Shown: positions 52,108 to 61,958 of the stretch, piece by piece
Position numbering within the stretch: the stretch's first letter is position 1
Layout: each line of letters starts with the position of its first letter
Assembly: GCF_040812015.1 (NCBI RefSeq)
Contig: NZ_JBFNXJ010000004.1
Span: forward strand, 124,001 to 188,000
Source of the DNA: Chitinivorax sp. PXF-14
GTDB taxonomy: Bacteria > Pseudomonadota > Gammaproteobacteria > Burkholderiales > SCOH01
Length of the DNA: 64,000 nucleotides
Reading direction: 5' to 3'
Program-made: the position numbers and the translations under genes
The notes under the pieces: generated by a model
What the model was told of the DNA's origin: nothing
Databases searched by the model: none
The model's input: only the letters and a program-made list of their open reading frames with translations

Positions 52108-52131
52108 TATACTGTGATTCTGAAATCACAG
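52108..52131 (+). promoter_or_regulatory. hip promoter with overlapping operator
   Basis: A -10 like TATACT (52108-52113) is overlapped by a perfect inverted repeat CTGTGATT-CTGA-AATCACAG (52112-52131), ten bases before the hipA ATG. It should bind HipB or the HipAB complex. Confidence 0.6.
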
Positions 52132-52140
52132 AGTATTTCA

Positions 52141-53424
52141 ATGCAGCTGACACTGGAAAAATTCCTCGACGGCGCCTGGCACCAAGCTGCCACCGTCGTG
52201 ATAGATGCGCCACAGCGCGGTATCGTGTCCCCGTGTACGGTGGAATATCTGCCGGCGTATGCCCTTGCCCATCTCGATGCCAAGGGCCTTCCCGCGTTAT
52301 CTGCGCATCTAGCAGTGTCGTTTAATCATCAACGCTTGCCGCACTGGGTGCCTTTCCTGCTGGACATCTTGCCCAACGGTTTCGGTCGTGACCTTTTGGT
52401 GGCTCAGGAAAACTGGCCCCGCCCCGATGGCCCGCACAATGATGCAAATGTATTGGTTCACGGCGCCAGCAACCCGGTCGGCAATCTTCGCATCGCCGAG
52501 GCTCATGCCTGGCTAACGGCTCAACTGCCGCAACCCGCTCAAGGCTGGCCGCTGGATGAGATGCGGCAAAACGATGCAGACTTTCTGGAATATGCGCGAG
52601 TGCATGGCACATTGGTCGCTGGGACCAGTACCCAGGGGCAAGCTGCCAAGCTATGGCTTACCTTACGGCAGGATGGTCTTTACTACGCAGACATCCTGGT
52701 GCCAGATGCGGAAGCCGCTGCGCACTATCTGCTGAAGATGCCGCGCAATGCGCGCGACGCGGTGCTGCTGCGGCATGAGTTCCACTGGCTGCAGTTGGCA
52801 CAGACAGCAGGGCTGGATGTCCATGGCGAGCCCTTCATGTCGGGCGATCTGTTATTTATTCCGCGCTTCGACCGCCAACTTTTGAATGGTGGCGTACGCC
52901 GCCGTGCGGTCGAGAGCGCGTTCAGCCTAATGGGGATTGCTGCACATGCCCAACCACTCCGGCATGAGGACATCATTGAAGCATGGGTAAACCACGCGGA
53001 TATGGATGCGCTGGGCTTTGGATTGCTGGAATACCTGAAGCGGGACATGCTGGGGTACTGCCTGCGCGTCGAAGACAATCATGGACGCAACACGGCGTTC
53101 TTCCTGGGTGAGCAAGGCATTAGCCTGACGCCGCTCTTCGATTTCTCGCCGATGTTCCTGGACGATGACCCGCCGGTACGTTCGACCTTGTGGCGGCAGT
53201 TTTCGCTGGGTTCGCACACCGAATGGCTAAAGCTATTCGATGTCTGGTTGCCAGGCATCATCGGTACTGACAACAGTGAAGACTTGCGCGCTCAGCTGGT
53301 AGCTTGGCAACCAAGCCTGAAGGCGACCTACGAGCAATTCCAGGCGCTAGCCCTGGACCCACGCACGGCGCCATGTGGCCAGCGCTTTGAAATCGCATTG
53401 GGGGTGCTCAATGCGCTACGCTAA
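52141..53424 (+). CDS. hipA: HipA-like serine/threonine kinase toxin
   Basis: HipA-type kinases phosphorylate targets such as GltX and cause growth arrest. The 427-aa product has an N-terminal subdomain (AHLAVSFNHQRLPHWVPFLLDILPNGFGRDLL), the P-loop-like GTSTQGQAAKLWL, the catalytic-loop-like EDNHGRNTAFFL and LFDFSPMF metal-binding motif. The ATG at 52141 is used because an ATG at 52114 lies within the operator and upstream of the likely RNA start. It overlaps hipB by 14 bp and precedes it, the reverse of E. coli. Confidence 0.85.
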   Translation: MQLTLEKFLDGAWHQAATVVIDAPQRGIVSPCTVEYLPAYALAHLDAKGLPALSAHLAVSFNHQRLPHWVPFLLDILPNGFGRDLLVAQENWPRPDGPHNDANVLVHGASNPVGNLRIAEAHAWLTAQLPQPAQGWPLDEMRQNDADFLEYARVHGTLVAGTSTQGQAAKLWLTLRQDGLYYADILVPDAEAAAHYLLKMPRNARDAVLLRHEFHWLQLAQTAGLDVHGEPFMSGDLLFIPRFDRQLLNGGVRRRAVESAFSLMGIAAHAQPLRHEDIIEAWVNHADMDALGFGLLEYLKRDMLGYCLRVEDNHGRNTAFFLGEQGISLTPLFDFSPMFLDDDPPVRSTLWRQFSLGSHTEWLKLFDVWLPGIIGTDNSEDLRAQLVAWQPSLKATYEQFQALALDPRTAPCGQRFEIALGVLNALR

Positions 53425-53788
53425 GAAATCGCCAGAAGAACTGCAGGCCTTGCGTCGCACCCTGGTCAGCCGGCTGGCACAGTCCCAGCCTGGCGTGGCG
53501 GAAGCGGCCCGCTGGATAAGAGATTCGCTTGGCCTTAACCAGCGTGAGTTTGCCAAGCTGGTCGGGCTTAGCACGCCGCAGGTTGCACGGCTTGAGCGGG
53601 GAGAGGCCAATCCCACACTGGAGACGCTGCTGGCTGTCGGTAAACCCTATGGTTTGGGCATTGGGTTCAGCCATCCGGATATGCTGGTACAACAGTCAGC
53701 GCCAGCAACCGACATAACACCCAGTCAGGCGGTGGAGCCGAAAGTGAAAATCCCGCGGCTAAATTTCAACAAGCCTGCAGATGGCTAG
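53411..53788 (+). CDS. hipB: HipB-like antitoxin
   Basis: The 125-aa XRE-type protein has a helix-turn-helix (DSLGLNQREFAKLVGLSTPQVARLERGEANPTLETL) at residues 35-72 and a longer tail than E. coli HipB, ending with KIPRLNFNKPADG. It would neutralise and co-repress with HipA. Its start lies in the last 14 bp of hipA. Identification as antitoxin rests on pairing with hipA. Confidence 0.82.
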   Translation: MRYAKKSPEELQALRRTLVSRLAQSQPGVAEAARWIRDSLGLNQREFAKLVGLSTPQVARLERGEANPTLETLLAVGKPYGLGIGFSHPDMLVQQSAPATDITPSQAVEPKVKIPRLNFNKPADG

Positions 53789-53999: not shown

Positions 54000-55076
54000 T
54001 TAGTGGATCAGGCTCATCGCCTTGATCTGCAGCCATACCTGGAGGCCGGGGCGCAGCGCCAGTGCGTCGAACGAGCGCCGTGTGATGCGGGCGACGATGT
54101 GGCCGCCGGCCAGCTCGCAACGGATCAGCATGTGGCCCGGCTGGGTGGCCGGCGCGAATGTCGAGACGACGGCGGGCAGGCGATTGAGGATGCTCGAGTC
54201 GGCATGCTCGGTCAGCGCAAGGCTGACGTCGCGCGCGTGGATGCGCACGCGGCTGGCCTGGCCCGCCTGCAAGCCGGAGGCGGGCAGCCACAGCGTGCCG
54301 CCGGCAAAGCCGAGTTGCGCCAGGCTGTAATGCGGATCGACGGCGTCGACATGGGTATCGAGCACCACGCTGGCCTCGTCGCTGAACTGGGCGGGCAAGT
54401 CGAGGCGAGACAGGGTGTCGGTCGGGGAGCCGGCAGCGACTACCCGGCCCTGGTCGATCAGCACTAGGTGATCGGCGAGGCGGATGACTTCCTCGATGGC
54501 ATGGCTGACATAGACGATGGGCAGGTCGAGCTCGGCCTGCAGCCGCTCCAGATAGGGCAGGATATCCTGCTTGCGGCGGAAATCGAGCGCCGACAGCGGC
54601 TCGTCCAGCAGCAGCAGGCGAGGCGAGGTCAGCAGCGCGCGCGCGATGGCCACGCGCTGGCGTTCGCCGCCCGACAGCTTGGCCGGCGAGCGGTCGAGCA
54701 GATGCTCGATGCCGAGTAGCACCAGTGCCTGCTGCCAGCTCACGCGCCGGGCTGCGGGCGGGGTCCGCCGCAGGCCGTATTCGAGGTTGCGGCGCACCGA
54801 CAGGTGCGGGAACAGGCTGGCCTCCTGGAACACCATGCCGAGCTCGCGCTGGTGCGGCGGCAGGCACAGGCCTTGGGCATCGTCCTGCCACACCTGCTCG
54901 CCCACCTGCAGCCGCCCGCGTGCCTTGGGCTCGAGCCCGGCCAGGCAGCGCAGGATCGTCGTCTTGCCCGAGCCCGATGCGCCGAACAGCACCGATACCC
55001 CGCTCAAGGGCAGGGCCAGGTCGACATCGAGGCGGAATTCGCCGTGATCGAGCGTGAAGCGTGCCTGGATGCTCAT
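54000..55076 (-). CDS. modC: Molybdate ABC transporter ATPase
   Basis: ModC energises molybdate uptake. The 358-aa product has Walker [12 protein letters not shown], signature [14 protein letters not shown] and Walker [13 protein letters not shown], then a C-terminal TOBE/Mop domain (about 290-355) that binds oxyanion. The start at 55076 overlaps the modB stop by 4 bp (ATGA); the longer open frame continues into modB and is not used. Confidence 0.96.
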
Positions 55077-55750
55077 GACCGGGCCCCGCTGCGGTTGAGC
55101 AGATGCAGTGCCAGCAGCACACTGAAGCTGAACGCCAGCAGGCCGCCCGCCAGCCAGTGGGCCTGTGTGTATTCGAGCGCCTCGACGTGATCGAATATCT
55201 GCACCGATACGACGCGCGTGCGGCCCGGAATGTTGCCGCCTATCATCAGCACCACGCCGAATTCCCCCACGGTGTGGGCGAAGCTCATCACCGCCGCAGT
55301 GATCAGGCCGGGCCGTGCCAGCGGCAGCGCCACGCTGAAAAAGGTATCGAGCGGCGAGGCGCGCAAGGTGGCGGCGACCTCCAGCGGCCGTGTGCCGATG
55401 GCCTTGAAGGCTTGCTGCAAGGGCTGCACGGCGAACGGCAGCGAATAGAGCACCGACGCGATCAGCAGGCCGCTGAAGCTGAACGGCAGCAGCCCCCAGC
55501 CGAGGTGCCGCGTCAGCTGCCCGATCGGCCCCTGTTCGCCCATCAGCACCAGCAGATAGAAGCCGATCACGGTGGGCGGCAGCACCAGCGGCAAGGTGGT
55601 GACCACACCGACGATGCTGCCGGCCAGGCTGCGGCTGCGCGCCAGCCACCACGCAAGCGGGGTGCCGGCCACCAGCAGCACGAGCGTGGTGCTGGTGGCG
55701 AGCTTGAGCGTGAGGAGGATGGCCGACCAGTCGTCCGCGCTGAAACCCAT
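55073..55750 (-). CDS. modB: Molybdate ABC transporter permease
   Basis: The 225-aa inner-membrane protein has about five helices and the EAA-type loop ([25 protein letters not shown]) that docks ModC. It lies between modA (10 bp away) and modC (4-bp overlap), so the three genes form one operon. Confidence 0.95.
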
Positions 55751-55760
55751 CGGTATGCGC

Positions 55761-57367
<1,607 letters not shown>

Positions 57368-57377
57368 GGTCAGGATC

Positions 57378-57401
57378 CGATATATAATTTTGTATATAGT
57401 T
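57378..57401. promoter_or_regulatory. ModE box between modE and molbindin gene
   Basis: CGATATAT-N8-ATATAGTT has the 8-8-8 spacing of the known ModE operator (CGTTATAT-N8-ACATAACG in E. coli modA). It is 10 bp before modE and 128 bp before the divergent molbindin gene, so it may control both. Confidence 0.75.
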
Positions 57402-57528
57402 TAACGGGCATCGCGGCATGGTGGAATAGTCCTTTAGCGCTATTCCTCCGCTATGGTGGCGGCGCCAACACCGGCGCGCGTATAGTGACGGCGCCGTTTC
57501 TGTTCAACCAATAAAAAGGACCCAGACA

Positions 57529-57957
57529 ATGAATATCAGCGCGCGCAACCAGTTCAGCGGTACCGTCGCCAGCCTCCAGGCCGGTGCGGTGAATGCCGAA
57601 GTGATCGTCGATCTCGGCGGCGGCACGCAACTCGCCGCCATCATCACCAACGCCAGCGTGCAGTCGCTCGGCCTGGCTGCCGGCAAGCCGGTCGTGGCCC
57701 TGGTGAAGGCATCGTCGATTTTGCTGATGACTGACGGTGGCGGCTTCAAGCTGTCCGCCCGCAATTGTCTCGCCGGCACGGTCAAGCAGGTGCGCGATGG
57801 CGCGGTGAACGCCGAAGTCGTGCTGGCTCTGCCGGGTGGCACGGAAGTCGTGGCGATCGTGACGCAGGAGTCGGTCGCGTCGCTCGGCCTCAAGGCCGGT
57901 GTGGCGGCGACGGCGGTGATCAAGGCCTCGGCCGTGATTCTCGGCGTACAGGGCTGA
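57529..57957 (+). CDS. Di-Mop molbindin (molybdate storage)
   Basis: A 142-aa protein made of two tandem Mop domains (MNISARNQFSGTVASLQAGA; LSARNCLAGTVKQVRDGAVN). Molbindins of this ModG type bind molybdate in the cytoplasm and buffer its concentration. No DNA-binding part is present. It is divergent from modE across a ModE box. Confidence 0.92.
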   Translation: MNISARNQFSGTVASLQAGAVNAEVIVDLGGGTQLAAIITNASVQSLGLAAGKPVVALVKASSILLMTDGGGFKLSARNCLAGTVKQVRDGAVNAEVVLALPGGTEVVAIVTQESVASLGLKAGVAATAVIKASAVILGVQG

Positions 57958-57970
57958 TCCAGCCCCTGCA

Positions 57971-58001
57971 AGGCGCCGGCCGTGTCGCGCGGCCGGCGCC
58001 T
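57971..58001. terminator. Bidirectional hairpin
   Basis: AGGCGCCGGCCG and CGGCCGGCGCCT form a 12-bp stem with a 7-base loop between convergent genes. No T-tract follows. Confidence 0.55.
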
Positions 58002-58007
58002 GGTTCA

Positions 58008-58553
58008 TCAGTTGAACAGCTTGATCACCTCCAGCGATTGCAGCCATTTGACGTGACGCGGCCCGGCGCGCAGGTCCTTGGCGGAAATCAGCGCGATCTG
58101 GCCCTCGTCGTCGTCAAGCAGCTTGCCGTTCTTCTCGAAGAACACCACCACCTCGTCGCCCAACGGCGAGTTGTATAGTTCCTGCCAGGAAAACACCGCC
58201 TTGTAGCCATCGCTGGCGGTAGCGACGATCACCATCTTCTTGGTGTCGTTGTGATCGCGGCTGACGATCTCGGCGCGATCGAGCACATCCTTCAGCTTCA
58301 CCCCCTTGTATTGCTTGATCTCTTCCATGGTGGCGCCGCTCTGGCAGACGATTGGCATGGCGCCGATCTCGGCGGCCGGCATTTTCTTCAGGTCGGCCAC
58401 CGTCAGCGTGAGCTGCTTGGCGACCGCACCGCTGACACTGACCGAGTGCGTGACATATTGGGCCGGGTTATCGACCTTGCCCGCCGCCTGGGCGACCAGT
58501 GGCAGCACGGTGAACGCGGCGGCAAGGCAGAGTTGTTTGAATGTGAGCATCAT
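58008..58553 (-). CDS. Periplasmic molybdopterin-domain protein
   Basis: The 181-aa precursor has a signal peptide (MLTFKQLCLAAAFTVLPLVAQA) and a domain that fits the sulfite-oxidase-type molybdopterin fold: PIVCQSGATMEEIKQYKGVKLKDVLDRAEI then YKAVFSWQEL and a C-terminal VKWLQSLEVI. The Cys in PIVCQSG stands where sulfite oxidase has its metal ligand, though many short homologues do not bind cofactor. It follows the TonB receptor gene on the same strand by 12 bp and is in the mod locus, so a link with molybdenum is likely. Confidence 0.75.
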   Translation of the reverse strand: MMLTFKQLCLAAAFTVLPLVAQAAGKVDNPAQYVTHSVSVSGAVAKQLTLTVADLKKMPAAEIGAMPIVCQSGATMEEIKQYKGVKLKDVLDRAEIVSRDHNDTKKMVIVATASDGYKAVFSWQELYNSPLGDEVVVFFEKNGKLLDDDEGQIALISAKDLRAGPRHVKWLQSLEVIKLFN

Positions 58554-58565
58554 GTGTTCCTCGGA

Positions 58566-60560
58566 TCAGAATCGGTATTGGCCGTTGACGAACCAGCCAC
58601 GACCCGGCGACGGGTAGCCGTCCACCAGCTGGTAGTTGCGGTCGAACAGGTTGCTGGCGCCGGCCTCGACGGTGACGGCCTTGATCGGCGACCACGCGAG
58701 CTTGAGGTCGGATGTGGCATAGCTGCCGAGTTCGACCGTGTTCGAGCTCCAGCGGCTGCTCTCGTACTGGGTGAACCACACCGCGTGCCAGCCGGGCAGG
58801 AAGCCCCAGTCGGCGTAGCCGGTGAGCTTGTTGCGCGGCGTGCCGGTCAGCCTGTCGCTGCTCGAACGGTTGTCGCGCGACAGCAGGGTGTAGCTGCCAC
58901 CCAGCGTGGTGTCCTGGCCGACGCGCTGGCGCAGGCCGAGCTCGAGGCCGCGCGCGACGACATGGCCGACGTTCTGCATCTGGCCACGGCCCGGCTGCAC
59001 GTTGGAGACCATCTGGATCAGGTCGCGGATATCGCTGTAAAACACCGCCGCATCGACACTGCCGTTGGCCCAGGGCTCGCCCTGGAAGCCGATCTCGTAG
59101 TTGCGCGAGCGCTCCGGCTGCAGGTCCGGGTTTTCAATGGTGCTGCCCATGCGCAGCGAGTAGCGGTCTTTCAACGTCGGCAGCCGTGATTTGCCGGCGA
59201 TGCTGGCGTAGACGCGGCCAGCGGCGATGTCCTGATAAAGGCCGAGCTGTGCGTTATTCAACGACTTGGCCGAAGGCAGCTGGTAGATGCCCGATTCGGT
59301 CGGTTTCAGTGTGTCGCGCGACAGGCCTGCGACCAGCTGCGTCGCTTCGCCCAGCGCGTAGCGGTCTTCCAGCGCGAAGGAGTGGATGTCGTCGCGGAAG
59401 GTCGCACCGCTGTTTTGCCCGTCGCTCTCGCGGTGGGTGTCGCGCTTGACGTAGAGCAGCGCCTTCAGCGTGTGGCCCTGCAGGCGGTCGCTCGACAGCT
59501 CGGCCGAGGCGCCGTTGCTGCTGTCGTCGTAGTAGCTCTCGCCGGTGGTGGTGTTGAGCACCTTGGCCTGCACCTGGCTGTAGCTCGCGTCCTTGTAGTT
59601 GATCACCGCGTTGGCGTAGGTGTCGTGATAGACGCGCAGCTTGATGGCTTCATTGCCCGTCAGCCGCGTGGTCGACAGCAGGTAGACGCTTTCCTTGTCC
59701 CAGTAGGGCCAGCGCCAGTAGCGTGGACTCTGGGTCGGGTCGGTCACTGGCGGCTGACCCTTGGCGCCGTGCTGGTAGACGTAGCCGAGCGCATACTCGT
59801 CGCCCTCGCGGGGCAGCCAGCCGAGCTTGACCGATTTCTTGATGTCGAGATGGTCCGAGTTCAGGCGGTGGCCGCCGTCCTCGACCGCGGTAGGCTGGAA
59901 ATCGCCCGACAGCTTGAAGAAATCCTGGCTCTCGTAATCGGCGCCGGCCTGCAGATACCAGTTGTCCTGGCGCGTGCCGAGGTTGACGCTGCCGGTCCGC
60001 AGCTGGCCGCTGCCGACACCGGCGCGCACATCGCCCTCGAATGGCTTGGTCGGCTTGCGCGTCAGCAGGTTGATCGCGCCGCCCATGGCGTTGGGGCCGT
60101 ACATCATCGAGCTCATGCCCTTGGCCACCTGGATGGCCGACAGATCGGCGGTGCGGAAGCGGCCGAGATCGACATAGCCATCGTAGGGCACATAGAGCGG
60201 GATGCCATCGACGAAGATCGGCATCTGGCGCGAGTCGTAGCCGCGCACATTGATCGTCTTCTCGTTGCGGCCGTTGGTCGCGATCATGACGCCCGGCAGC
60301 AGGTTCAGCGCATCGGCGACCGTGTCGCGGTTGAAGGTCTGGAAGTCGCGGCGGGTGACGACCGATGCTGCCTGGTCCTGGTGTAGCGTGCTGCGGTTGA
60401 CGATGCGGCTGCCGGTGACGACGATGGTGCCCAGGTCGTTGGTGGCGTCGCTATCCTCGGCTGCTGCGTTCGATGCGAGGCCGAGCGAGGCGCACGCCAG
60501 CAGGACTGCATGGGCGAGCGCCCGCTGGCGCGGGAAGGTGGGTTTCTTATTGTGTTGCAT
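58566..60560 (-). CDS. TonB-dependent outer-membrane receptor
   Basis: The 664-aa protein has a signal peptide (MQHNKKPTFPRQRALAHAVL to ASNAAAE), a plug domain starting near GTIVVTGSRIVN and containing DALNLLPGVMI and NVRGYDSRQMPIFVDGIPLY, and a beta-barrel ending in ...GRGWFVNGQYRF with the terminal Phe. The ATG at 60560 follows AGGGAG; the longer frame adds a non-signal lead. It is flanked by mod genes on both sides, and its upstream region has a perfect ModE half-site (60653-60660). Uptake of a molybdenum or tungsten complex is a reasonable inference. Confidence 0.88.
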   Translation of the reverse strand: MQHNKKPTFPRQRALAHAVLLACASLGLASNAAAEDSDATNDLGTIVVTGSRIVNRSTLHQDQAASVVTRRDFQTFNRDTVADALNLLPGVMIATNGRNEKTINVRGYDSRQMPIFVDGIPLYVPYDGYVDLGRFRTADLSAIQVAKGMSSMMYGPNAMGGAINLLTRKPTKPFEGDVRAGVGSGQLRTGSVNLGTRQDNWYLQAGADYESQDFFKLSGDFQPTAVEDGGHRLNSDHLDIKKSVKLGWLPREGDEYALGYVYQHGAKGQPPVTDPTQSPRYWRWPYWDKESVYLLSTTRLTGNEAIKLRVYHDTYANAVINYKDASYSQVQAKVLNTTTGESYYDDSSNGASAELSSDRLQGHTLKALLYVKRDTHRESDGQNSGATFRDDIHSFALEDRYALGEATQLVAGLSRDTLKPTESGIYQLPSAKSLNNAQLGLYQDIAAGRVYASIAGKSRLPTLKDRYSLRMGSTIENPDLQPERSRNYEIGFQGEPWANGSVDAAVFYSDIRDLIQMVSNVQPGRGQMQNVGHVVARGLELGLRQRVGQDTTLGGSYTLLSRDNRSSSDRLTGTPRNKLTGYADWGFLPGWHAVWFTQYESSRWSSNTVELGSYATSDLKLAWSPIKAVTVEAGASNLFDRNYQLVDGYPSPGRGWFVNGQYRF

Positions 60561-60633
60561 GACGTTGATTGGCTCCCTTTGAGGTTGGCTGGCTTGATGG
60601 GCTCCACCCTCGCTGCGGTTTCCCGCAGTGTTT

Positions 60634-61125
60634 TTATTTGATGTTGTTGTGTATATAGCGATGGGCGAGCGAAGCACGCTCGTCCACCCAGGCCGCCGGC
60701 GGCGAGCTGCCCGGGCCTGTGGCGGGCAACGGCCATTCGACCGTGTCGTCGTCGGCGGCAGGCTGCTGCGCGTCGTCGTCGTCGAGCGTCAGCAGCAGCT
60801 CGGACAGGCGGTTCCAGCCCGAGCGGGGATTACCCATGCCGAGCAGCTCGCGCGCCGAGTCGCCGCCAGGGCCGATCAGGCCCAGCAGGCGGCAGGCCTG
60901 CACGCCCGCGCTATAGCGCTCGCCGTCGCAGCCGAGCCAGTTGAGCCCGGCCAGTTGCGGCAGGAAGGCCGCCAGATGTTGTCGATTGAGGCGCATCGCC
61001 GCGGCGATCTCGTCCTGGCTGGCCGGGCCGCGTTCCAGCAGCCATTCGAACAGGCCCAGTTCGAGCGCCGCGCGGACCAGCTGGAAGTGCCGGAAGCTGC
61101 AGATCAGTTGGCTGGCGTAGTCCAT
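60634..61125 (-). CDS. Methyltransferase-dimerisation-type winged-helix protein
   Basis: A 163-aa protein that matches only the N-terminal dimerisation/winged-helix region of O-methyltransferases (FRHFQLVRAALELGLFEWLLERGPASQDEIAAAMRLNRQHLAAFL); no SAM-binding domain follows. It may be a regulator or a truncated enzyme. The ATG at 61125 follows GGGAGGTGCC. It begins 34 bp after an excellent ModE box, so it is likely under ModE control together with the TonB receptor downstream. Confidence 0.7.
   Translation of the reverse strand: MDYASQLICSFRHFQLVRAALELGLFEWLLERGPASQDEIAAAMRLNRQHLAAFLPQLAGLNWLGCDGERYSAGVQACRLLGLIGPGGDSARELLGMGNPRSGWNRLSELLLTLDDDDAQQPAADDDTVEWPLPATGPGSSPPAAWVDERASLAHRYIHNNIK
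60637..60660. promoter_or_regulatory. Weak ModE-type site before the TonB receptor gene
   Basis: The right half ATATAGCG (60653-60660) is intact and identical to that of the strong site at 61159-61182; the left half TTTGATGT is poor. It lies about 80-100 bp before the TonB receptor start, overlapping the stop of the small winged-helix gene. Confidence 0.35.
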
Positions 61126-61158
61126 CTCGGCACCTCCCTCATCATCAATCATCTGTAA

Positions 61159-61182
61159 CGTTATATTGTAAAAGATATAGCG
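61159..61182. promoter_or_regulatory. Strong ModE box
   Basis: CGTTATAT-TGTAAAAG-ATATAGCG has the 8-8-8 layout of the E. coli modA operator and shares its left half and following TGT exactly. It precedes the winged-helix and TonB receptor genes. Confidence 0.8.
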
Positions 61183-61307
61183 AGGCGGCAATAGTCCAAA
61201 CGGAGGAGCCCGCGCCTGTCGATTGGCGGGGGCGCCTTGCAATGCCAGCTCTTGCTGCCGACACTGAAACCATCGGCAAGCCGCCTGCCATGGCGAAGGA
61301 GGGGGAG

Positions 61308-61958
61308 ATGAAGTTTCGCGACCGGATGCACGCCGCCGCATTGCTGGGCCAGGCCCTGCAGCGCTATCGCGGACAACGGCCGCTGGTGCTGGCCATCCCG
61401 CGCGGGGCGGTGCCCATGGGCCGTGCGCTGGCCGATGCGCTCGGCGGCGAGCTCGATGTGGTGATGGTGCGCAAGATCGGCGCGCCGTTCCAGCCTGAGT
61501 TTGCGCTGGCGGCAGTCGACGAGGCCGGCTGGGTGTACCGCAATCCGCATGGCGGCAGCGATGCGCAGACACTGCGCTACATCGAGGCCGAGCGCGAGCG
61601 GCAACTGGCGCTGATCCGCGAACGGCGTGCGCGCTACACGCCGGGCCGGGGGCCGGCCGATCCGCGCGGCCGCGTGGTGATCGTCGTCGACGATGGCTTG
61701 GCGACCGGCGCCACGATGATCGCCGCGCTGCATGCGCTGCGCGACAAGCAGCCGGCGCGGCTGGTGTGCGCGGTGCCGGTGGCGCCGTCCGATGTGCTGA
61801 GCAAGATCGGGCCGCTGGCGGACGAGGTGGTCTGCCTCGCCACACCCACCGACTTCAGCGCGGTCGGGCAGTTTTACGAGCGTTTCGACCAGGTCGAGGA
61901 TGCCGAGGTGGTGGCTGTGCTGCACGGCACGGCGGGCGGGCCTGCCGGGCAAGACTGA
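61308..61958 (+). CDS. Phosphoribosyltransferase family protein
   Basis: The 216-aa protein has a PRT fold with the PRPP-binding loop VIVVDDGLATGATMIAAL. It opens MKFRDRMHAAALLGQALQRYR and includes VLAIPRGAVPMGRALADAL, the layout of ComF-unrelated PRTases that often sit beside stress hydrolases. The start at 61308 is preferred since AGGAGGGGG ends five bases before it; ATGs at 61242 and 61290 are poorer. Substrate unknown. Confidence 0.85.
   Translation: MKFRDRMHAAALLGQALQRYRGQRPLVLAIPRGAVPMGRALADALGGELDVVMVRKIGAPFQPEFALAAVDEAGWVYRNPHGGSDAQTLRYIEAERERQLALIRERRARYTPGRGPADPRGRVVIVVDDGLATGATMIAALHALRDKQPARLVCAVPVAPSDVLSKIGPLADEVVCLATPTDFSAVGQFYERFDQVEDAEVVAVLHGTAGGPAGQD

Follow-up and report, generated by a model that had tools for sequence, protein, structure and literature searches.

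Why is a TonB-dependent receptor encoded beside the molybdate transport (mod) genes of Chitinivorax sp. PXF-14, and what does it carry? The genes are located in a stretch of 64,000 nucleotides (contig NZ_JBFNXJ010000004.1 of assembly GCF_040812015.1, positions 124,001 to 188,000), which we call the window. The receptor gene belongs to a run of three co-directed minus-strand genes (61125-58008) coding for a winged-helix protein, the receptor and a sulfite-oxidase-fold protein. The E. coli ModE regulon with modABC resembles the locus in the helix-turn-helix (HTH) of ModE, the operator layout and the molybdate ABC importer, but is not known to contain a TonB receptor or a stand-alone sulfite-oxidase-fold protein. 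A first-pass annotation of this DNA had reported modE, a molbindin gene and a TonB receptor and had tied the receptor to ModE and molybdenum nutrition. Pfam and NCBIfam confirmed ModE, ModA, ModB, ModC, the double-Mop molbindin and the receptor, and comparative genomics strongly supports the tie to molybdenum. The receptor run is probably an outer-membrane molybdenum uptake module, which would be repressed by ModE and import a molybdenum species under scarcity.

The window ModE aligns with E. coli ModE (1b9m, 144 bits) along most of its chain, and its recognition region in the HTH closely matches the E. coli segment ISQGAKDAGISYKSAWDAINEMN; the E. coli operator is therefore the right one to seek. 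It was scored as CGTTATAT-N8-ATATAACG, an 8-8-8 layout with 16 scored positions, using the E. coli consensus. One form of the ModE operator consensus is also quoted in PMC545781. Chance was modelled with an order-2 Markov chain of the window (GC 63%), and 50 Mb of simulated sequence yielded 12 sites with a score of at least 13/16, one of at least 14 and none of at least 15. This corresponds to 3.1 sites of at least 11/16, 0.24 of at least 12 and 0.015 of at least 13 expected per 64 kb. The 24-bp ModE-type operator that the first-pass annotation had seen before the winged-helix gene and the receptor (61159-61182) scores 15/16, which nothing in the simulated 50 Mb equals, and is beyond chance. 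As the first-pass annotation stated, half of this site appears to be identical to the E. coli modA site. The second reported box, between modE and the molbindin gene, is present and is notable solely for its position in this short gap. The third, weaker one could be located before the receptor (60637-60660), but this 11/16 site alone is not above chance in the Markov simulation. In the sister genome L010 a 15/16 box stands at the head of the corresponding run and a 12/16 site at the equivalent of the 60637 site. The whole genome (4.42 Mb) contains five sites with at most two mismatches, compared with 0.09 expected at 14/16 or better. They precede the receptor run, a DUF2325 gene, a molybdopterin oxidoreductase gene, an assimilatory-type nitrate reductase gene (where the box lies inside the longest frame, yet 5' of the likely start codon) and a gene pair for TpsA and a ModA-like protein.

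The first-pass annotation had also proposed to look for this pairing in other genomes. In named genomes at least 595 stretches were matched, and at least 401 of these encode a relative of the receptor; the closest 80 (L046-L125), not a random sample, were kept. The 600 bp upstream of each receptor match were compared with 2076 further tiles of 600 bp from these 80 loci. A box of at least 13/16 was found upstream of 58 of the 80 receptors and in 19 of the 2076 tiles (0.9%); the numbers are 38 and 8 for at least 14, and 22 and 1 for at least 15. Permuted palindromes reached at most 7 of the 80 loci in a first set (n = 244, mean 0.29) and at most 3 in a second (n = 200, mean 0.14), and at every score tested none of the 200 matched the ModE result. 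Chance palindromes were thus rejected as the source of the boxes. Within 1 kb, 66 of the 80 receptors have a box of at least 13/16, and in several of the added cases it precedes a co-directed gene 5' of the receptor. With receptor start codons assigned at 79 of the 80 loci, the median distance from the end of the best box to the start codon downstream is 30 bp, and 30 of the 65 box-bearing loci contain two or more boxes. Box-marked receptors are found in Oxalobacteraceae, Chromatiaceae, Azonexaceae, Comamonadaceae, Gallionellaceae, Acinetobacter and deltaproteobacteria.

A ModE gene, assigned by best BLAST label, is present in 34 of the 80 stretches. Seven of 80 genomes comprising Chitinivorax sp. 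PXF-14 and its relatives have the receptor at E <= 1e-40, its own included, as have 17 of the 399 genomes of the order at E <= 1e-80, again including its own (search with alignment A2, no more than three candidates being scored per genome). ModE exceeds the curated cut-off in 10 of these 17 receptor genomes and in 64 of the 382 others (p 2e-4, uncorrected for kinship). Judged from these sequence comparisons, the predicted control of the receptor by ModE is well supported.

The last gene of the run, located between the receptor and molbindin genes, was absent from the first-pass annotation. It encodes a stand-alone protein of 181 amino acids (aa) in which Pfam found only one domain, of the sulfite-oxidase type. 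Structure comparison of its model (Foldseek/VIA; SoxC/SorA/SUOX and PruR) gave Z scores of 15.9 for SoxC, 15.7 for the Starkeya sulfite dehydrogenase and 15.0 for chicken SUOX, followed by 14.8, 14.7 and 14.6 for the PruR structures 7kom, 7kou and 7rkb (neopterin complex). PruR superposes with a root mean square deviation of 2.0-2.2 A over 123-124 residues (7kom, 7kou). An hmmsearch with the alignment of the sulfite-oxidase-fold proteins had sulfite oxidases and nitrate reductases among its matches and PruR not, so that the connection to PruR is a structural one. PMC13259868 describes PruR proteins as secreted stand-alone proteins with reduced pterins as ligands; a Trp replaces the Mo-ligating Cys, and they pair with DcpA or DTB regulators. 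The PruR proteins of Agrobacterium and Vibrio thus resemble the window protein in being a single domain of this fold of about 170 aa with a secretion signal (seen by eye in the window protein). They differ in their partner, which in the window is a TonB receptor (the neighbours being receptor and molbindin) instead of DcpA or DTB, and in the Trp, since Cys70 of the window protein aligns with the Mo-ligating cysteine. This cysteine is found in 26 of 37 aligned members and is missing in 11; the other residues in the column are R, G, L, T, K, S or a gap, and the PruR-type Trp does not occur in the 37 rows. With a variable cysteine and neither the Trp nor the regulator present, neither molybdoenzyme nor PruR fits the protein as family membership. 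Our working idea is a periplasmic protein with a ligand such as a pterin or a molybdenum complex. In L098, L104 and L123, sulfite-oxidase-fold genes are located upstream of the receptor and show by eye no obvious signal peptide.

The sulfite-oxidase-fold protein is one of several partners. According to a scripted rule it accompanies 36 of the 80 receptors, while 14 have an SBP_bac_6 protein (mostly together with a di-haem protein), 12 a FecCD-type importer without DUF2478, 10 such an importer with DUF2478, three a mixed neighbourhood and five none. On a tree of 86 receptors the eight partner labels, 'none' included, require 19 changes, compared with a minimum of 7 and a shuffled mean of 43.9; the tree was made by a quick method, and 22 of its 83 inner branches have less than 80% support. 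The receptor thus appears to keep its box while the partner modules swap, and what the loci share is most simply sought in the receptor's cargo and not in the chemistry of any partner. MolBCA is a FecCD-type molybdate importer of Haemophilus. Such importers accompany many sister receptors as well as the second system of the genome itself, but not the window locus, which has ModABC. Several sister loci contain DUF364 genes; from structure and context, DUF364 has been proposed to take part in making flavins, pterins or heavy-metal siderophores (PMC2954201).

From this we infer the following course of events. At sufficient molybdate, ModE-molybdate would bind the box 61159-61182 at the promoter and turn off the run, which presumably is co-transcribed. 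When molybdenum is scarce, the receptor would be made and energised by TonB and ExbBD; TonB genes are present at C8 and C5 of the genome and ExbB and ExbD genes at C5. It would bring a molybdenum species, either molybdate or a small complex, into the periplasm, where the sulfite-oxidase-fold protein might bind or process it and pass molybdate to ModABC, which would finish the import. Expression under scarcity fits the position of the operators close before the receptor start codons. The first-pass annotation had suggested a chelated cargo such as a molybdophore; if molybdenum is carried, a complex is in our estimate somewhat less likely than the bare anion. The SUOX/PruR-type partner, like the FecCD-type importers of the sister loci, leans towards the complex, and the fold match to the pterin-binding PruR makes an organic molybdenum complex plausible. 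More speculatively, and rather doubtful at present, a widespread TonB-dependent pathway could exist for a small organic molybdenum complex, possibly pterin-like or another molybdophore, in which the receptor stays constant under ModE and the complex is received by interchangeable modules. In one module a protein with a PruR-like pterin pocket would work with ModABC, in another a binding protein with a di-haem protein as its redox partner; in the third, a FecCD importer would be joined by methyltransferase, DUF2478 and DUF364 enzymes. The modules would bind the complex, release its molybdenum or carry it inward whole.

Fur and Zur sites were scored in the same 80 upstream regions with consensus strings and compared with 1008 tiles and 200 permuted motifs. 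Strong Fur sites (at least 13/19) were found in 3 of the 80 regions and 25 of the 1008 tiles, strong Zur sites (at least 14/22) in 2 and 32, and permuted motifs gave as many in both cases; iron or zinc control of the receptor through such sites was therefore rejected. Weak Zur sites (at least 12) are present in 48 of the 80 regions and 293 of the 1008 tiles, and permuted motifs do equally well.

Several points weigh against a ModE-repressed molybdenum receptor. Weak Fur sites (at least 12/19) occur in 24 of the 80 regions and 124 of the 1008 tiles; the mean for permuted motifs is 12 of 80, with 24 reached by 3 of the 200. Part of the receptor family may therefore also answer to iron, perhaps under dual control by iron and molybdenum. 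For 14 of the 80 receptors no box of 13/16 or better is present within 1 kb, and in eight of these cases modE, modB and modC are also missing from the fetched stretch. Order-wide, 9 of the 17 receptor loci, including that of Chitinivorax sp. PXF-14, have a box of at least 13/16. The 80 loci, as the closest of at least 401 relatives, are not random, and the tiles are probably mostly coding and richer in GC than upstream DNA, which makes the permuted motifs the better control. Porins are usually thought to pass molybdate. Finally, moa and some molybdoenzyme genes of E. coli are among the genes that ModE activates, so that the receptor could be expressed at high molybdenum.

Taken further, this last point gives an explanation in which ModE-molybdate activates the run at plentiful molybdenum and the receptor imports a pterin or another cofactor precursor that is used with molybdoenzymes. 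The partner, sharing its fold with sulfite oxidase and with PruR, a periplasmic pterin-binding protein (PMC13259868), would suit such a cargo. The short distance between operator and start codon favours repression, as we read it, and mod genes or FecCD-type importers are present in many of the same loci. We consider this explanation unlikely.

A second explanation is an ordinary receptor for an iron siderophore or another metal that lies beside the mod genes by chance, with coincidental boxes. The receptor itself has the common architecture: a plug and barrel with a TonB-box-like LGTIVVTG (by eye) and an AlphaFold model with a mean confidence (pLDDT) of 88.9, whose nearest folds include BtuB, Cir, PirA and OprC (TMt 0.84 to BtuB). 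It shares the plug and barrel fold and the TonB-box-like segment with these four and differs from them in sequence (15-20% identity). Most of the solved relatives are siderophore receptors or BtuB, and the NCBIfam matches are of the generic siderophore, haem or B12 type, all 25 listed being below the curated cut-offs. The slight excess of weak Fur-like sites over permuted motifs also points in this direction. The ModE boxes at 58 of the 80 receptors, compared with 0.9% of the tiles and no more than 3-7 loci for permuted motifs, argue against it, as does the frequency of strong Fur and Zur sites, which equals that of permuted motifs. The receptor family is set apart from BtuB, Cir, PirA and OprC by its ModE boxes, by the missing strong Fur or Zur excess and by a conserved residue set of its own. 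In 63 receptor sequences RNE and YVPYDGY are conserved in the plug and RYW-WP-W and PT-KDRYS in the barrel, and Trp, Arg, Asp, Asn and Tyr are among the residues conserved in the barrel. No Cys, no Met beyond the start and no His other than His376 reaches 80% conservation in these sequences. The WP-W and KDRYS segments are predicted from strand order to be extracellular, and the residue set would seem better adapted to anions or aromatic compounds than to soft metal cations. We consider an ordinary receptor with coincidental boxes quite improbable.

Very improbable in our view is a receptor for tungstate, vanadate or complexes of these instead of molybdenum. ModE also responds to tungstate, and ModA binds it. 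DUF364, present with some sister receptors, has a genome context that has been taken to connect it with the transport of tungstate, vanadium and molybdate (PMC2954201). Of the five best boxes in the genome, however, two stand before genes of molybdopterin enzymes, one of the nitrate reductase type, which argues for molybdenum. We see hardly any chance that the sulfite-oxidase-fold protein is a working molybdoenzyme whose substrate is imported by the receptor, with ModE matching the enzyme to the cofactor supply. The PF00174 match and the cysteine of the window protein favour this; the loss of the cysteine in other members, the single domain and the quite different partners of the same receptor family speak against it.

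Table 1. Features of the mod locus and the receptor run in the window
Feature	Position	Strand	Evidence or sequence	Remark
modC, molybdate ABC transporter ATPase with TOBE	54000..55076	-	TIGR02142 446.7 bits (cut-off 285.05)	start codon by inspection
modB, molybdate ABC transporter permease	55073..55750	-	TIGR02141 234.1 bits (cut-off 182.6)	
modA, periplasmic molybdate-binding protein	55761..56513	-	TIGR01256 226.5 bits (cut-off 62.5)	
modE, HTH and two Mop domains	56534..57367	-	TIGR00637 over cut-off; TIGR00638 in two stretches; alignment to 1b9m/1o7l	
ModE-type box	57378-57401		CGATATATAATTTTGTATATAGTT	12/16; gap between divergent modE and molbindin genes
molbindin, two Mop domains	57529..57957	+	TIGR00638 and PF03459, two stretches each	
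sulfite-oxidase-fold protein, stand-alone, 181 aa	58008..58553	-	PF00174 4.8e-14; model pLDDT 86.7	signal peptide by eye; last gene of run
TonB-dependent receptor, 664 aa, plug and barrel	58566..60560	-	PF07715 and PF00593 over cut-off	
winged-helix protein, 163 aa, O-methyltransferase dimerisation domain	60634..61125	-	PF08100 2.8e-8	first gene of run
weak ModE-like site	60637-60660		TTTGATGTTGTTGTGTATATAGCG	11/16; before receptor, overlapping end of winged-helix gene
strong ModE box	61159-61182		CGTTATATTGTAAAAGATATAGCG	15/16; about 33 bp before first codon of winged-helix gene

The first gene of the run had been described as a small winged-helix gene; the winged helix holds and is more precisely an O-methyltransferase dimerisation domain, and Pfam found no methyltransferase domain in the protein. 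Residues 6-112 are 33% identical to a longer O-methyltransferase-type protein at C8 of the same genome (G000:C8), and the orthologue in L010 is 58% identical. The protein was found in one of 143 genomes of the class, namely its own, which also has the longer relative; it has no plasmid match and beyond its own genome was met only in the sister locus L010. It was therefore rejected as a general marker. On the other side of the strong box, about 60 bp away, a divergent phosphoribosyltransferase gene begins (61242-61958), which might share its control. A gene pair for a HipA-like kinase and an HTH protein is located at 52114-53788, in the order kinase then HTH (PF07804, PF01381).

Among the 11 plug-domain receptors of the genome, only that of the window has a box of at least 13/16 in the fetched stretch; another, at C8, has a box of 12/16. 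The C8 receptor sits in a cluster (G000:C8:28496-51654; L138, L027, L016) with five more boxes of 16, 15, 14, 13 and 13 of 16. This second cluster encodes a stand-alone ModE-type HTH protein, DUF2325, a molybdopterin oxidoreductase with an FeS/DmsC-like protein, DUF2478, a methyltransferase, a radical SAM protein, the TonB receptor, a FecCD-type importer, the longer O-methyltransferase-type protein, DUF364 and TonB, as well as a nitrate-reductase-type molybdoenzyme fused to flavodoxin-reductase domains. Receptors of the C8 type have a box of at least 13/16 near the start in 4 of 14 cases (L048:15807, L055:7590, L105:7261, L109:2309). The Chromatiaceae loci L048, L056 and L057 are molybdenum islands with mop, modE, the receptor, a TonB gene, two more TonB receptors, a distal ModAB pair and several ModE boxes. 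At G000:C5:143351-151294 (L137:7352-15295) a 15/16 box precedes genes for a TpsA exoprotein (two-partner secretion), a ModA-like binding protein, a TpsB transporter, ExbB, ExbD and TonB. TpsA and the ModA-like protein recur together behind a 13/16 box in G202 (L141:4321-9053; 57% and 67%), and the ModA-like protein is present at E <= 1e-25 in 2 of the 399 genomes of the order, its own included. This locus could be a secreted molybdenum-capture system. No metallophore synthesis genes were recognised among the scanned genes of the window. The genome has three condensation domains, all at C3:29-37 kb, and no box with three or fewer mismatches is located there; a ModE-linked nonribosomal peptide synthetase metallophore in this genome was thus rejected.

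An outer-membrane step for molybdate has been reported for Pseudomonas aeruginosa, for which the reviews PMC7759655 and PMC8602904 describe ModABC together with a route in which ModA is secreted by the type VI secretion system and the outer-membrane protein IcmP takes part (PMC8602904). Among the papers listed by literature searches on molybdenum uptake, ModE and TonB, with subscription papers, RegPrecise and preprints outside its scope, we noticed no TonB-dependent molybdenum receptor; an earlier prediction is possible. The parts described here are of known kinds; what seems to be new in the literature covered is that a TonB-receptor family, with swapping partners, is assigned to molybdenum. 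Molybdophores have been described, and a dedicated receptor for them is not known to have been identified. In some waters and soils it is molybdenum that sets the limit to nitrogen fixation and nitrate respiration. The receptors of the family that are marked by ModE boxes are direct candidates for carrying molybdenum across the outer membrane when its concentration is very low, and the recurrence of the pairing across many proteobacteria suggests an undescribed route by which scarce molybdenum may cross this membrane.

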